Shown: one piece after another, positions 43,754-59,188 of the stretch
How positions within the stretch are numbered: position 1 is the first letter of the stretch
Layout of the letters: every line of letters starts with the position of its first letter
Assembly: GCF_000758685.1 (NCBI RefSeq)
Contig: NZ_CP009286.1
Location: 92,501 to 156,500 of the forward strand
Reading direction: 5' to 3'
Source: Paenibacillus stellifer
Lineage (GTDB): Bacteria; Bacillota; Bacilli; Paenibacillales; Paenibacillaceae
DNA length: 64,000 bases
Program-made: the position numbers and the translations under genes
Notes under the pieces: generated by a model
Told to the model about the DNA's origin: nothing
The model's database searches: none
The model's input: only the letters and a program-made list of their open reading frames with translations

Positions 43754-45049
43754 TTAAGCTGCCATCTGTAACTGAGCCTGACGCACCGGCCCTAACACGT
43801 CGTTTGCGTTGTACGGAACCTGCTTGGTTCCGAGCGTATGAAGCACGCGAATGAGCTTCCCACACAAGGCTACAAGGGATTGCTTTTTCTTGAGCGGATT
43901 TTGACTTCGCTTGGTGAAATACTGGTGCAGTGCCTTAAACTCGGCGTTCTTTGCCACCATGGGCATCACCGCCCGGAACAGCAGCGCCCTTAGGCGTGCG
44001 CGTCCACGTTTAGTAATACTGGATTTGCCCTTTTTCTTTCCCGAACTGTTCTCCTTGAGGTTTAGTCCGGCGAGCCGAATAATCTGCTGTCCATGCTCGT
44101 AACCGCTCAGATCCCCGACTTCGGCGAGAAACCCTGCCAACGTAACTACGGCTACGCCCGGAACGGTAAGCATCTCTTTCGTTCCCGGAATTTGAGCAAG
44201 GAGACGTTCCACCTCGGCCAGAATCTCTTCGAGTTGTCTGGCGAACATCTCATACTGCTCCAGAAGCGTCTTGATCTCCACTTTCGCTCCGGGAAGTCCT
44301 TCCGTAAGCCCGATGGAACGCCTCGCCGTTTCCATGAGGTGCAGCGCTCGTTTCGCCCCTACGGCTCGTTTTACGTCTTTTTTCCACCGCTGGACAATGG
44401 CCTCTGTGCCCATCTCTACGATTTCTCCTGGCGTTGGAAACTCGCTAAGCGTAATGCGTGATGCCTTGCCTTCCCAGTCTTTGAAGACCTGCGTGTACTC
44501 CGGAAAAAAGCGGTCCAGCCAGTTCTGCACCCGTCTTTGCACCTGCCCGAAGTTCACCATGATCTTCTCCCGAAGATTCATGAGAATCCGCAGGTCGGCG
44601 TAAACGCTCGTTGGCAGTTTGGGCTCGCTGTACTTCCCGTTTCGCACCAAATCGGCAATGACCTTGGCATCTTTATAGTCATTTTTCGTGGGTGAATTGT
44701 CTTCCAGTTCTTTGCTTTTGTGTACGTGATGCGGATTCACAATGACCAAAGGAATGCCCTGCCGCCCTAAATATTCCGCCAGCGTAAACCAGTAGTGTCC
44801 GGTGGGCTCAATACCGAAGAGGACGTCACTCTTGGCATGCTCCTGCTGAAGCTCCTTCATCCACTGAACCAGTTGCTCGAGTCCGGCACGGGTATTAGAG
44901 AACACACAATCCTTACCCAGTTCGATCCCTCGAAAGTCTATGGCGCGAGCCACATGGGTATCTTTGGCGATATCTGCGCCGACCACGAGGGTATTTTCGG
45001 AAATTCGGGTGATTCGTTGATTCTGTTTCTTCGATTGTTTATACTTCAT
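43754..45049 (-). CDS. IS110-family DEDD transposase/recombinase
   Basis: 431 residues from ATG at 45049 (GGAGG upstream). N-terminal RuvC-like DEDD site: GADIAKDTH (Asp 26), GIEPTGHYW (Glu 81), SPTKNDYKDAKVIADL (Asp 124, Asp 127). The C-terminal transposase-20 domain (LLAQIPGTKEMLTVPGVAVV, LAGLNLKENSSGKKKGKS, SITKRGRARLRALL) holds the serine of the joint active site. Intact, so the element may be active. Codon use differs little from the host. Confidence 0.93.
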   Translation of the reverse strand: MKYKQSKKQNQRITRISENTLVVGADIAKDTHVARAIDFRGIELGKDCVFSNTRAGLEQLVQWMKELQQEHAKSDVLFGIEPTGHYWFTLAEYLGRQGIPLVIVNPHHVHKSKELEDNSPTKNDYKDAKVIADLVRNGKYSEPKLPTSVYADLRILMNLREKIMVNFGQVQRRVQNWLDRFFPEYTQVFKDWEGKASRITLSEFPTPGEIVEMGTEAIVQRWKKDVKRAVGAKRALHLMETARRSIGLTEGLPGAKVEIKTLLEQYEMFARQLEEILAEVERLLAQIPGTKEMLTVPGVAVVTLAGFLAEVGDLSGYEHGQQIIRLAGLNLKENSSGKKKGKSSITKRGRARLRALLFRAVMPMVAKNAEFKALHQYFTKRSQNPLKKKQSLVALCGKLIRVLHTLGTKQVPYNANDVLGPVRQAQLQMAA

Positions 45050-45270
45050 GATAGAGTGCCTCCTATGCTGAAATTGTTCTTTGGTCGGAACGTTTCCCAG
45101 TATACAGAAGGCGCTTTTTTCATTCAAACCTCAGATTAATTCATTACAGGAATGGCTCCTCGAAATATAGAAATGATTAATATAGTTTACAAGATATTTG
45201 AGTTTTACAGCATTATTCTTTAGGTTTAAAATTTCCAAGAAGGGAATAGGTAATGAAAGGTGGTTTAGCG

Positions 45271-48807: not shown

Positions 48808-49320
48808 TTACTCCTCTATATTGGATTTAGACTGGCGCTTCTGCCGCAGCCGGCGGAAGAAAGAGGTAAGAAGCTCGGCGCATTCTTCTTGAAGAATGCC
48901 GGAAATGATCTCCGTACGGTGATTAAAGCGGGGTTCTTCCAGCAGATTCATCAATGTTCCTGCACAGCCAGCCTTGGGGTCGGGCGTTCCGTATACGGTG
49001 CGCGGAACGCGGGATTGTACCATTGCTCCGGCACACATGGGGCAGGGCTCCAGGGTGACGTACAGTGTGCAGTCCAGCAGACGCCAGGAATTCAGCGCCT
49101 TGCTGGCTTCCCGGATGGCGACCATCTCGGCATGGGCGGTTGAATCAAGCGTCGTCTCGCGAAGATTATAGCCTCTGCCGATAATCGCTCCGCCTTGGAC
49201 GATGACCGCGCCGATTGGAACTTCGCCAAGCGCTTCCGCCTTGCGGGCCTCGGCGATTGCCTCGCGCATCCACTGTTCATGTTCTAGTTGCAGATCCAAT
49301 GCTATGTCGGTGTTCTCCAA
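48808..49320 (-). CDS. tadA: tRNA-specific adenosine deaminase
   Basis: 170 residues. HAE (63-65) and PCPMC (zinc cysteines 93 and 96) are the deaminase site. It turns wobble adenosine 34 of tRNA-Arg(ACG) into inosine, an essential step. In Bacillus it is near dnaX downstream of serS; here it is on the minus strand and paired with a GNAT gene. Confidence 0.95.
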   Translation of the reverse strand: MENTDIALDLQLEHEQWMREAIAEARKAEALGEVPIGAVIVQGGAIIGRGYNLRETTLDSTAHAEMVAIREASKALNSWRLLDCTLYVTLEPCPMCAGAMVQSRVPRTVYGTPDPKAGCAGTLMNLLEEPRFNHRTEIISGILQEECAELLTSFFRRLRQKRQSKSNIEE

Positions 49321-49633
49321 AAATTCCCTTCCTCTCCGCGAATCGGCCGATTATTCCACGAACGAGTATTCGTTCTTAACAAGCTGTGAATAACTCTGTG
49401 GAAAACCGGAGTATTATCCACATTTTTATGCACATGGAGGATGTTGATTTGTTTATATGTGCATAACCTGTGGATGGTTTCTTTCCTAATTGTAGAGAAA
49501 GAAGCGGTATTTTTCAATCGAGAGAGCTCGAAAAGCAGGGCACAACCGCTTTTCAAAAGCAAGGGCAACAGTTATGATATTTATGGAATGATATTATAAG
49601 ATTTACCAGCCCGTTAAGAGGTGAACAGAGAGC
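49321..49633. promoter_or_regulatory. DnaA-box cluster between tadA and the histidine kinase
   Basis: No gene. Exact TTATNCACA boxes at 49385-49393 (minus), 49414-49422 (plus), 49426-49434 (plus) and 49458-49466 (minus), plus near matches TTTTCCACA at 49397-49405 (minus) and CCATCCACA at 49469-49477 (minus). Six boxes in 93 bases. The rest of the stretch holds the divergent starts and an imperfect AGCGGT/ACCGCT repeat (49503-49553). Confidence 0.8.
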
Positions 49634-51925
49634 TTGTCCATTAAAACGAAGCTTTCCGCCATAATATTCGGCTCGGTGCTTCTGATCTTGGCGCTTAATT
49701 TAACGCTGAATACATACAGCACACGAGAAAATCTGCGGAACGAAGTGGAACGTAACATGAGGACAACGGCCATGCAAATAGCCGTCTCCGTGGAACAGAG
49801 CAATTACAGCTCCAATTACGCGGAACAACTACTTGCCCAGAATTTGCGGATGGCCGCTGTCTATATTGCAAGCCAGCTGGATCCCGATATAGACAATGTA
49901 AGCAACTCGGAGCTTAAGGCGCTGGCAGCGAAGGCAGGCGTGTCCAACATCTCGCTGCTGGTCAGAACCAAAGACGATGTAGTGGTTCAGAAGTCCTCCG
50001 ACTCCAAGGAGCTAGGGCTCCCGACCAAGGGCTGGGGTTACTGGTATACTGCTTTTATCGATTTATTCGAAGGACGGGATGTATCGGTCGCGAAGGGGCA
50101 GCGGATGGAGAATTTCTGGTCCGGCCCTTTTGAGTACTCCTCATCCAATCCGGAGTTTATCGAGAAGTGGGGATACTACCATGACGAGAACCATAACTAC
50201 ATTATTGATCCCTATATCCGCAGTACGGCAATCAGCGATTATGTCCGCATCATGAGCCCCGAAGAAATCGTTCAGCAGACGATGAAGGTCAACCCCGATA
50301 TTCTGGAGATTACAGGGATCAACCCGGTCACCTTCGGCTCGCCTACAATGGCTTCTGACGGCACTGACAGCGTGAATACGAAGCTGCGCAACCGGCCGAT
50401 CAAATACGGAACTTACCGCTACGGGAACGTTGAGGAGGACAAGCAGGCGGTGCAGGAAGCATTGAGCAGCAAATCGCCTGTTATGCTGGAGACGAAGGCT
50501 AACGGGGCCCGGGTGCTGAAGAGCTTCATTCCTGTGACTCTGCCTGACTCCGGCGTCTACGTCATCAGTGTGGTCAGCAGCTATTCCGTCATTTCATCGG
50601 TGCTGAAAGAGCAGATCTGGAACAGCGTCCGCATCTCGTCCATTCTGCTTGCCTTCTTTCTGGTGGGAAGCTATGTGCTGGCGGGATTTATTATCCTGCC
50701 GATCCAGGCGATCCTTGCCAAGGTGCAGGATGTATCCCAAGGCAAATTTGATCCTCCACTTCTTGTAGGCAGCCGCGATGAGCTGGGCCAGCTGGCGCTG
50801 CGCATCAATTCCATGACGCGCAATCTGGAGCTGCATACAAGCCGTCTCCGAAGAACGCTGGAGGAGAACCGTGAAGTGAAGGAACATCTGGAGTCCGTCA
50901 TTAACGGAACCTCGGATGCGATTCATACCACCGATATGGACGACCATATAGTCAGCGTGAACCGGGCATTTGAGGAGCTGTATGGCTGGAAGAAGAGCGA
51001 GGCGTCCGGGGAGTCGCTTCTCCTGATTCCGGACTCCGTTCAGGAGGAGGAGAACGACAGGCTTGAGCGGTTAATTCGCGGCGAGCAGCTTCCGCCAACA
51101 GAGACGCTGCGTCTGAAGCGGGATGGAACGGTGGTGGAGGTCAGCGTAAGCACTTCCGTCATTCGCGACGAGAACGGCCATCCGATGTCTTTTGTCCATG
51201 TAACCCGTGATATGACAGAGCGCAACCGGATGGAGGAGCTTCTGCGGCAGTCCGAGAAGCTTACGACAGTCGGACAACTGGCTGCAGGCGTCGCCCATGA
51301 AATCCGCAACCCGCTGACGACGCTTAGGGGATTTCTGCAGCTTCAGAAGGAGAAGAGCCTGCTCATTCCCCTGCACGTGGATTTGATGCTCTCTGAGCTG
51401 GACCGGATCAATCTGATTGTCAGCGAGTTCCTGATCCTGGCCAAGCCGCAGGCGGTCCGGTTTCAGCGAAAGGATGTGCGCCAAATTTTATGCGATGTCG
51501 TATCGCTGCTGGACAGCCAGGCGCATCTGCATGACATCCAGGTCGAGAACCGGTTTGAATATGGCCCTGCCATGGTACACTGTGAAGAGAACCAATTGAA
51601 GCAGGTGTTCATTAATATTATCAAAAACGGAATCGAGTCCATGTCTTCAGGAGGAACGCTGACACTGGAACAGAAGCATGTGGATAACTCCATCGTTATC
51701 ATAATCACGGACGAAGGCGAGGGCATCCCCGAGGAGGTTCTGCCGAAGCTGGGCCAGCCGTTCTTTACGAATAAGGAGACAGGGACGGGGCTCGGCCTTA
51801 TGATCAGCCAGCGCATCATTCAGGCCCATAAGGGCCAGCTGGAAATCGACAGCCGGGTCGGTTATGGAACCTGGGTGACGATCACACTGCCGGAAGCCGG
51901 AGAGCGTGAGGGTGATATAGATTAG
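49634..51925 (+). CDS. PAS-domain sensor histidine kinase (sporulation-kinase type)
   Basis: 763 residues, TTG start after AAGAGGTGAAC. N-terminal membrane helix, a large extracytoplasmic sensor (about 35-320, Cache-like), second helix, HAMP (about 345-400), PAS (about 410-520), HisKA with VAHEIRNPL (His 555), and HATPase_c (NQLKQVFINIIKNGIESMSS, DEGEGIP, TGTGLGLMIS). The LTTLRGFLQL segment after the histidine is typical of KinA/KinE-type sporulation kinases. No response regulator is nearby, so it is an orphan, possibly feeding Spo0F. Confidence 0.9.
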   Translation: MSIKTKLSAIIFGSVLLILALNLTLNTYSTRENLRNEVERNMRTTAMQIAVSVEQSNYSSNYAEQLLAQNLRMAAVYIASQLDPDIDNVSNSELKALAAKAGVSNISLLVRTKDDVVVQKSSDSKELGLPTKGWGYWYTAFIDLFEGRDVSVAKGQRMENFWSGPFEYSSSNPEFIEKWGYYHDENHNYIIDPYIRSTAISDYVRIMSPEEIVQQTMKVNPDILEITGINPVTFGSPTMASDGTDSVNTKLRNRPIKYGTYRYGNVEEDKQAVQEALSSKSPVMLETKANGARVLKSFIPVTLPDSGVYVISVVSSYSVISSVLKEQIWNSVRISSILLAFFLVGSYVLAGFIILPIQAILAKVQDVSQGKFDPPLLVGSRDELGQLALRINSMTRNLELHTSRLRRTLEENREVKEHLESVINGTSDAIHTTDMDDHIVSVNRAFEELYGWKKSEASGESLLLIPDSVQEEENDRLERLIRGEQLPPTETLRLKRDGTVVEVSVSTSVIRDENGHPMSFVHVTRDMTERNRMEELLRQSEKLTTVGQLAAGVAHEIRNPLTTLRGFLQLQKEKSLLIPLHVDLMLSELDRINLIVSEFLILAKPQAVRFQRKDVRQILCDVVSLLDSQAHLHDIQVENRFEYGPAMVHCEENQLKQVFINIIKNGIESMSSGGTLTLEQKHVDNSIVIIITDEGEGIPEEVLPKLGQPFFTNKETGTGLGLMISQRIIQAHKGQLEIDSRVGYGTWVTITLPEAGEREGDID

Positions 51926-57888: not shown

Positions 57889-57904
57889 ACGATTGGACTC
57901 CTTC

Positions 57905-58030
57905 CAATGCCTGCGAGGTTAGCTTAAGGGTTCGGTAGAAGGTCCCCTATGACCACTCTTTAAATAGGAGGTCAATTCACCCAAAGATGGTTCCCCCGCT
58001 TCCCTGCTTCAGGGAACTCGGCACCTACTG
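57905..58030 (-). promoter_or_regulatory. c-di-AMP riboswitch (ydaO/yuaA) before first NlpC gene
   Basis: Minus strand: GGGGGAACC, TTTGGGTGAATTG, then AGGGGACC, ACCGAACCC and GCTAACCTCGCAGGC, in the order of the ydaO/yuaA (c-di-AMP) leader. High c-di-AMP turns such genes off in Bacillus, limiting wall hydrolysis under salt or potassium stress. Confidence 0.92.
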
Positions 58031-58344
58031 TAATTGTGATTTCGATGTATAGCGATTCATTCGTAACAAAAAGATCGCGAAAACGTTAATATTCATTACA
58101 AAAATGTTACTAAGATTTCATTGCGATAATTGTAACAAACCTTTAGCCGCTTGGCAATCATTTTGTACATAGCTGTAATCATTTTTATAACGCTTTCATT
58201 TAGGCGCTTACCTATGAATTTGTCCAAAACCCGCGAATTCTCTGGGATTGAGCATCTTTGAGGACCGACAAAAAAATTTGTTTTTCATTTCTCGCGGGGA
58301 CTGTTTCAGGGCGAATGATCTGGTGTATATTTACCTTAAATAGG
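58031..58344. other. Intergenic stretch between the two NlpC units
   Basis: No gene. AT-rich; the promoter of the first riboswitch unit should lie in its lower part (on the minus strand), where TATACA occurs near 58045, but no convincing -35 was found. Confidence 0.5.
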
Positions 58345-58878: not shown

Positions 58879-58894
58879 CTGAAATTCCCCTTCC

Positions 58895-59022
58895 AAATGC
58901 CTGCGTGGTTAGCTTAAGGATTCGGTTTGAAGGTTCCCTATGATCCCTCTGTTACGAGATCAATTCACCCAAAGAAATGGTTCCCCCGCTCCCCGGTGCC
59001 CAGGGATTTGGCTTGTTGTGCA
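58895..59022 (-). promoter_or_regulatory. c-di-AMP riboswitch before second NlpC gene
   Basis: Minus strand: CCTGGGCACCGGGGAGCGG, GGGGGAACC, TTTGGGTGAATTG, AGGGAACC, ACCGAATCC and GCTAACCACGCAGGC. Same order as the first copy; the loop lengths differ. Confidence 0.92.
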
Positions 59023-59188
59023 CCTCAATATGAATTCGACATAATTAGACTACAGTCGTCAAAATAGCTTATCTTTTTAAAAGATTACAAACTTGTTACC
59101 CTCAACACAAGCCTCATTGTAGCAGAGGTTTTCTCGTTTGGCAAATCCTTTTCGTCCGAGGAAGAGTTTGGAGAAGGGGAAATAAAAG

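Follow-up and report, generated by a model that had tools for sequence, protein, structure and literature searches.

We identified a dense cluster of DnaA boxes immediately upstream of tadA, the gene for tRNA adenosine(34) deaminase, in a Paenibacillus chromosome. The sites, their spacing and orientation, and their association with tadA recur across the order of Paenibacillus, and the arrangement is absent at tadA in the families of other orders that were sampled. A box resembling the LexA binding site lies in the same region, between the putative -35 and -10 elements of the tadA promoter. We think it probable (about 0.7) that this array is the regulatory region of tadA and forms a promoter under the control of DnaA and LexA, comparable to that of sda; the binding of the two proteins, the promoter elements, and the direction and purpose of control are inferred from sequence.

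The DnaA box array at the putative tadA promoter

The window, the whole stretch of 64,000 nucleotides that was analysed, corresponds to bases 92501-156500 of a complete, one-contig Paenibacillus chromosome of 5.66 Mb. dnaA and dnaN are at the beginning of the chromosome sequence; box arrays surround these two genes and occur at the chromosome end too. The tadA array is approximately 140 kb from dnaA/dnaN and 142 kb from the first base of the sequence. The following features are used below.

48808..49320, minus strand: tadA, tRNA adenosine(34) deaminase, TTG start (195.9 bits with the NCBIfam equivalog model NF008113, whose cut-off is 150)
49350..49355, minus strand: putative -10 (AATAAT) of the tadA promoter
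49359..49372, minus strand: LexA/SOS-like box CGAATACTCGTTCG, between the putative -35 and -10
49373..49381, plus strand: degenerate inverted third DnaA site TTCTTAACA, 2 mismatches, 12 bp from the next box
49374..49379, minus strand: putative -35 (TTAAGA), which is TTAACA in many relatives
49385..49393, minus strand: tadA-proximal DnaA box TTATTCACA, exact, one half of the 12-bp tandem pair, conserved in relatives
49397..49405, minus strand: distal box of the 12-bp pair, TTTTCCACA, 1 mismatch
49414..49422, plus strand: DnaA box TTATCCACA, exact
49426..49434, plus strand: DnaA box TTATGCACA, exact
49458..49466, minus strand: DnaA box TTATGCACA, exact
49469..49477, minus strand: weak near match CCATCCACA, 2 mismatches
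49634..51925, plus strand: divergent orphan sensor histidine kinase (HAMP, PAS, HisKA, HATPase_c), a neighbour and not a conserved partner

Elsewhere in the window there are two c-di-AMP (ydaO) riboswitches (57893-58033 and 58883-59023), each before an ORF of the NlpC/P60 family, and, between serS and tadA, an ORF for an IS110-family transposase (43754-45127; Pfam DEDD_Tnp_IS110 and Transposase_20).

An earlier, sequence-only reading of this DNA had reported six DnaA boxes here. We recovered all six: four are exact matches to TTATNCACA, at 49385 (-), 49414 (+), 49426 (+) and 49458 (-), within 82 bp; the site at 49397 has one mismatch, and the site at 49469, with two, is weak. The position at 49397 is an exact TTATCCACA in most relatives among those listed, and that at 49469 is occupied by TCATCCACA in loci L014 and L018.

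The whole chromosome contains 128 exact boxes, or one per 44 kb, and a reversed-pattern control gave 76. The rate of one per 33 kb assumed in the sequence-only reading was, if anything, generous to chance, and its claim that four exact boxes in 82 bases are not random was borne out: when 128 points were placed at random 200,000 times, four never fell within 82 bp. When exact boxes separated by gaps of no more than 300 bp were grouped over the whole chromosome, three groups had at least three: oriC/dnaA (seven boxes), the tadA site (four) and a site at a YdiF-like gene (four). The array is thus a non-random cluster of the DnaA-box kind, with 9-mer boxes packed far above chance and DnaA as its putative ligand. 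A cryptic origin of replication, in which the boxes would adjoin a DnaA-trio or unwinding element and the dnaA-dnaN genes, seems less likely: dnaA and dnaN are 140 kb away, and we saw no trio-like repeat after the tadA boxes when the sequence was inspected by eye.

The position of the array is that of the putative tadA promoter, which the sequence-only reading had overlooked along with the LexA-like box and the degenerate inverted site. The core consists of two tandem boxes 12 bp apart, the inverted degenerate site, which overlaps the putative -35, and the LexA-like box before the putative -10. On the tadA strand, the first part of the consensus reads TTATCCACA, 3 bases, TTATNCACA, approximately 2 bases, and TGTTAA(C/G)A; from there it continues with CGAATNNNNGTTCG, approximately 3 bases, a -10 resembling NAYAA(T), the ribosome site and tadA. 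The TGTTAACA stretch, 12 bp beyond the second box, would serve as degenerate inverted DnaA site and putative -35 at once, and in some genomes of other families its position holds a better box (TTGTACACA, TTGTGCACA or TTGTTCACA). A NAYAAT-like consensus, in which the last T is weakly conserved, directly follows the LexA-like box in 52 anchored genomes.

By sequence comparison, the LexA-like box matches sites at the organism's own SOS genes. The same CGAATNNNNGTTCG form is present approximately 125 bp upstream of the recA ORF, as CGAATGTATGTTCG (RecA was identified by an NCBIfam scan), and lexA has two boxes of related form, GAACGAGTGTTC and GAACGAAGGTTC. The site at tadA departs by one base from the B. 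subtilis consensus CGAAC(n)4GTTCG, as quoted from the part of PMC4551915 that gives it, and the recA site shares the same departure. A search of the whole chromosome with the LexA-like pattern listed 20 matches in 19 places, with CGAAYNNNNGTTCG at 18 places other than tadA, several of them inside ORFs. lexA and sda are missing from this list because an outer base of their boxes does not fit the pattern. When ORFs downstream of these other places were scanned (nine neighbouring ORFs at six places against NCBIfam, seven of them also against Pfam), RecA alone was recognised as an SOS protein, and the motif is therefore a poor genome-wide predictor of SOS genes. Because few SOS genes were found and some places are intragenic, the bare motif is weak evidence, and it is the conservation at tadA that carries the argument. 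The match at tadA is the only one listed that has two or more DnaA boxes within 150 bp. The search also revealed three CGAATNNNNGTTCG sites within 10 kb (G000:C1:893688-903268), before a glycosyltransferase-like ORF and two further ORFs, which is possibly a damage-inducible island.

Conservation at tadA in the order of Paenibacillus

Conservation of the boxes at tadA in related genomes had been proposed as the check on the cluster, and they are conserved. The survey comprised the genome itself together with 59 relatives, drawn from 11 families of the order. We used the best tadA match in each and left out eight loci (L125-L132) that would have counted the same genomes twice; the counts come from related genomes and are not independent samples. 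Of the 60 genomes, 57 have at least two boxes in the 250 bp upstream of tadA, compared with 68 of 2745 control windows; the exceptions were G038, G040 and G043. The 12-bp pair was present in 49/60, the LexA-like box in 52/60 and both in 44/60, and the two occurred together in at least one genome of 8 of the 11 families. Genomes without the LexA-like box (8/60) comprise the three exceptions and five in families f7, f8 and f9 that retain the pair. Eight further genomes, all of the same genus, failed the pair test at one mismatch, which rules out the pair as a complete criterion; in the six of them that were inspected the second site is of the RTGTNCACA type, with two mismatches and the same spacing. 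Across families whose TadA proteins are approximately 60-80% identical, the cores of the boxes are conserved and the spacers vary, and the distance from the pair to the LexA-like box and putative -10 is nearly constant in 8 of the 11 families sampled.

A strict composite pattern (the end of box 1, an exact box 2, and a LexA-like box 11-15 bp later) was found in 192 of 392 genomes of the order, representing 28 of 49 genera, with at most one copy per genome among the matches listed and none in the reversed control. The looser count in 60 genomes suggests that part of the 200/392 misses is due to the strictness of the pattern. In a class-wide draw of 398 genomes the composite was found in 20, all among the 38 from the order of Paenibacillus, and in none of the 360 from other orders. 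At all 49 loci examined (from 30 of the 192 genomes of the order search and 19 new ones from the class-wide draw), the composite is upstream of tadA, in the orientation of that gene, and approximately 60 bp or less from the extrapolated tadA start.

To cover other orders, the region upstream of tadA was analysed in one genome per family (34 of 103 genomes), and in 3 of 8 genomes of the own family; G420 and G469, with no convincing tadA match, and G415, in which the match was too near the contig end, were left out. In the 34 families of other orders, the region upstream of tadA contained neither an exact box nor a 12-bp pair nor a LexA-like box; boxes with one mismatch were found in 14 of the 34, with a maximum of four (L224).

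On the other side of the array is the divergent histidine kinase, which the sequence-only reading had called sporulation-type. Its domains confirm a kinase; the sporulation assignment was not established, since its core resembles the KinD and AtoS models with scores far below their curated cut-offs. Among named organisms, Paenibacillus sinensis has the locus closest to that of the kinase (94% identical). Kinase loci were obtained 52 times, and after removal of L060 (Geobacter, not an orthologue) there remained 51 Paenibacillus loci, L009-L059. All 51 have a box cluster upstream of the kinase, with 5-7 boxes in 120 bp compared with no more than three elsewhere in the same loci, and a LexA-like box is present in the 420 bp preceding the kinase at every one of them, compared with 27 of 1617 control windows. 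At 48 of these 51 loci the boxes form a 12-17-12 bp scaffold (two minus-strand boxes 12 bp apart, 17 bp, and two plus-strand boxes 12 bp apart, with no more than two mismatches per position), and the LexA-like box is 25-27 bp from the first box; L035, L038 and L039 fall outside it. The weakest place is the third position, which has at most one mismatch in 27 of the 51 loci.

In the survey from tadA the kinase is often missing: it is present beside tadA in 36 of the 60 genomes and absent (no match at E 1e-20 in the fetched stretch) in 24, where the opposite ORF, named by eye, appears to be a pseudouridine synthase, a ychF-like GTPase or another gene. At least two boxes are nevertheless present at tadA in 21 of these 24. 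Because the boxes persist while the opposite neighbour changes, we assign the array to tadA; a primary role at the kinase, through which replication state might act on it as the sequence-only reading had proposed, does not fit this pattern.

Possible functions of the array

Several other explanations of the array can be considered. Chance, or inherited sequence with no function, is extremely improbable. Single near boxes are indeed common in the window (46 with no more than one mismatch, 36.6 expected), but the random placements described above reject chance as the source of the array, and conserved cores between variable spacers across families speak against both explanations. It is very unlikely that the main function of the array is to control the divergent kinase and so to couple replication state to entry into sporulation. 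The kinase adjoins the array in the majority of genomes surveyed, the extra boxes on its side are retained in the 51 kinase loci, and the median number of boxes is five with the kinase and four without it. However, the boxes remain where the kinase is missing, the tandem pair and LexA-like box are at the tadA end whereas the kinase starts approximately 160 bp past the last box, and the likeness of the kinase core to the KinD model is far below the cut-off. An effect on the kinase is possible as a secondary consequence of the array.

Titration of DnaA is also unlikely as the main function. In this explanation the cluster would buffer free DnaA near oriC and its place at tadA would be incidental, which is consistent with the density of its exact boxes and with its location 142 kb from the chromosome start, the site of dnaA and dnaN. 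In B. subtilis, removal of all six clusters outside oriC leads to early initiation, according to the part of a review that treats them (PMC5295017); the same review also describes such clusters as having no significant role in initiation. The other dense group of boxes in the chromosome provides a comparison. This cluster (eight boxes, four of them exact; L092:6987-7247, or G000:C1:1266986-1267246, at approximately 1.267 Mb) occupies the intergenic region between a leuA-like gene and a convergent YdiF-like ABC-F gene, downstream of the latter. Among 24 genomes searched, 23 YdiF-like loci were obtained; the cluster is kept, with 6-11 boxes, in 16 of 16 genomes of the same genus, including the genome itself. 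All six assessable genomes from outside the genus have only 0-1 boxes within 350 bp, and a seventh (L270), in which the YdiF match is incomplete, has nine boxes further on and may keep the cluster. The YdiF-side cluster is another candidate for titration, and its persistence in a convergent region favours such a role for clusters of this kind, but its absence outside the genus does not. Moreover, titration has no need of a LexA box and leaves unexplained the fixed geometry of the tadA array relative to the LexA-like box and putative promoter in 8 of 11 families. Because this geometry is kept across families and a LexA-like box accompanies it, we favour control of transcription, with titration as a possible second role.

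If the array controls tadA transcription, DnaA would bind the 12-bp tandem pair just upstream of the putative -35, and also the flanking boxes. LexA would bind the box between -35 and -10 and, by covering this stretch, most likely repress tadA. As at sda of B. subtilis, LexA might hold the promoter down until RecA triggers its cleavage after DNA damage, and DnaA might tune the promoter with replication status. Our guess as to direction is that DnaA activates from the upstream pair, and represses at high levels of ATP-DnaA if the third site, over the -35, becomes filled. The supply of inosine-34 tRNA editing would then follow DNA replication and damage.

TadA is a tRNA-editing enzyme that is essential in the model bacteria studied, and we know of no role for tadA in replication, repair or sporulation. 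A more far-reaching proposal, which we consider doubtful, is that in the order of Paenibacillus TadA acts as an effector of both the replication checkpoint and the SOS response, raised jointly through DnaA and LexA when replication is disturbed. The extra deaminase might then reprogramme decoding (inosine-34 in tRNA-Arg, CGN codons) or edit nucleic acids of other kinds, single-stranded DNA included, and so provide change under regulation. The genes ywlC, trmE and gcp of B. subtilis, which are tRNA-modification genes, lie beside DnaA regions, gcp being next to its site only; with them, the same proposal would extend to a more general control of tRNA modification by DnaA. If the proposed control of tadA is correct, a tRNA-editing enzyme would be subject to both the initiator of replication and the repressor of the SOS response throughout most of a bacterial order, linking the state of the DNA to decoding. 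There is also an evolutionary contrast, in that the arrangement is present through most of one order and absent in one genome each from 34 families of other orders.

Comparison with known DnaA and LexA systems

The presence of a LexA-like box at the array points to a dual DnaA/LexA promoter, a kind of promoter for which sda is the closest precedent. In B. subtilis, sda is a checkpoint gene that is activated by DnaA and repressed by LexA, as described in the relevant part of PMC11925247. A match to Sda was found in 57 of the 60 genomes, including the genome itself, which rules out that the kinase has taken the place of Sda. We examined the region upstream of sda in the genome itself and at 10 fetched loci from the 57 genomes with a match. 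In the genome itself and at nine of the 10 loci (L249:651-765; L133 and L135-L142; Paenibacillus and one genome of another family) there are 4-6 boxes with no more than one mismatch, a LexA-like box 11-12 bp from the nearest of them, and a distance of 66-78 bp from the LexA-like box to the start of the Sda match. The remaining locus, L134, has neither DnaA boxes nor a LexA-like box. The cluster at sda in the genome itself is built of near matches only, and the ranking that singled out tadA, oriC and the YdiF-like gene counts exact boxes. Because sda in the same genomes carries DnaA boxes together with a LexA-like box, tadA, where both are likewise upstream of one gene and conserved, shares the regulatory pairing of sda.

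The promoters of tadA and of sda in B. subtilis, as far as the latter is described in the source cited, and those of sda in Paenibacillus are alike in having DnaA boxes and a LexA or LexA-like box at one known or putative promoter. They differ in their target, which is a tRNA deaminase in one case and an inhibitor of the phosphorelay in the other, and tadA also differs from B. subtilis sda in its 12-bp tandem pair and in the placement of the LexA-like box between the putative -35 and -10. The uvrB promoter of E. coli, reported in PMC6015884 as repressed by DnaA and LexA, likewise has sites for both proteins in one promoter region, but it belongs to a DNA-repair gene in another lineage and has three promoters.

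Clusters of DnaA boxes, or regions of high affinity, reported in the main text of PMC4447404 for B. subtilis are those at sda, ywlC, ywcI, yydA, trmE, dnaA, dnaA-dnaN and gcp/ydiF. Like the tadA array, these include dense boxes outside oriC, some of them upstream of genes; unlike tadA with its LexA-like box, they are connected with LexA control for sda only in the parts of the papers that were covered. The cluster beside the YdiF-like gene matches the gcp/ydiF region in position. Neither tadA nor yaaJ occurs in the main text of PMC4447404, and tadA is not among the DnaA-regulated B. subtilis genes named in the parts of PMC4447404 and PMC8203912 that were covered. In PMC12448304, tadA is not mentioned in the main text, and the tadA in the portion of PMC7917626 that mentions it is a pilus gene of that name. 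Among the open-licence papers listed, the titles and opening lines of abstracts contain no report joining a tRNA deaminase with control by DnaA or LexA. If our interpretation is correct, tadA joins a small set of dual DnaA/LexA targets: the kind of promoter is already known, and the target, the architecture and the conservation throughout an order appear to be new.
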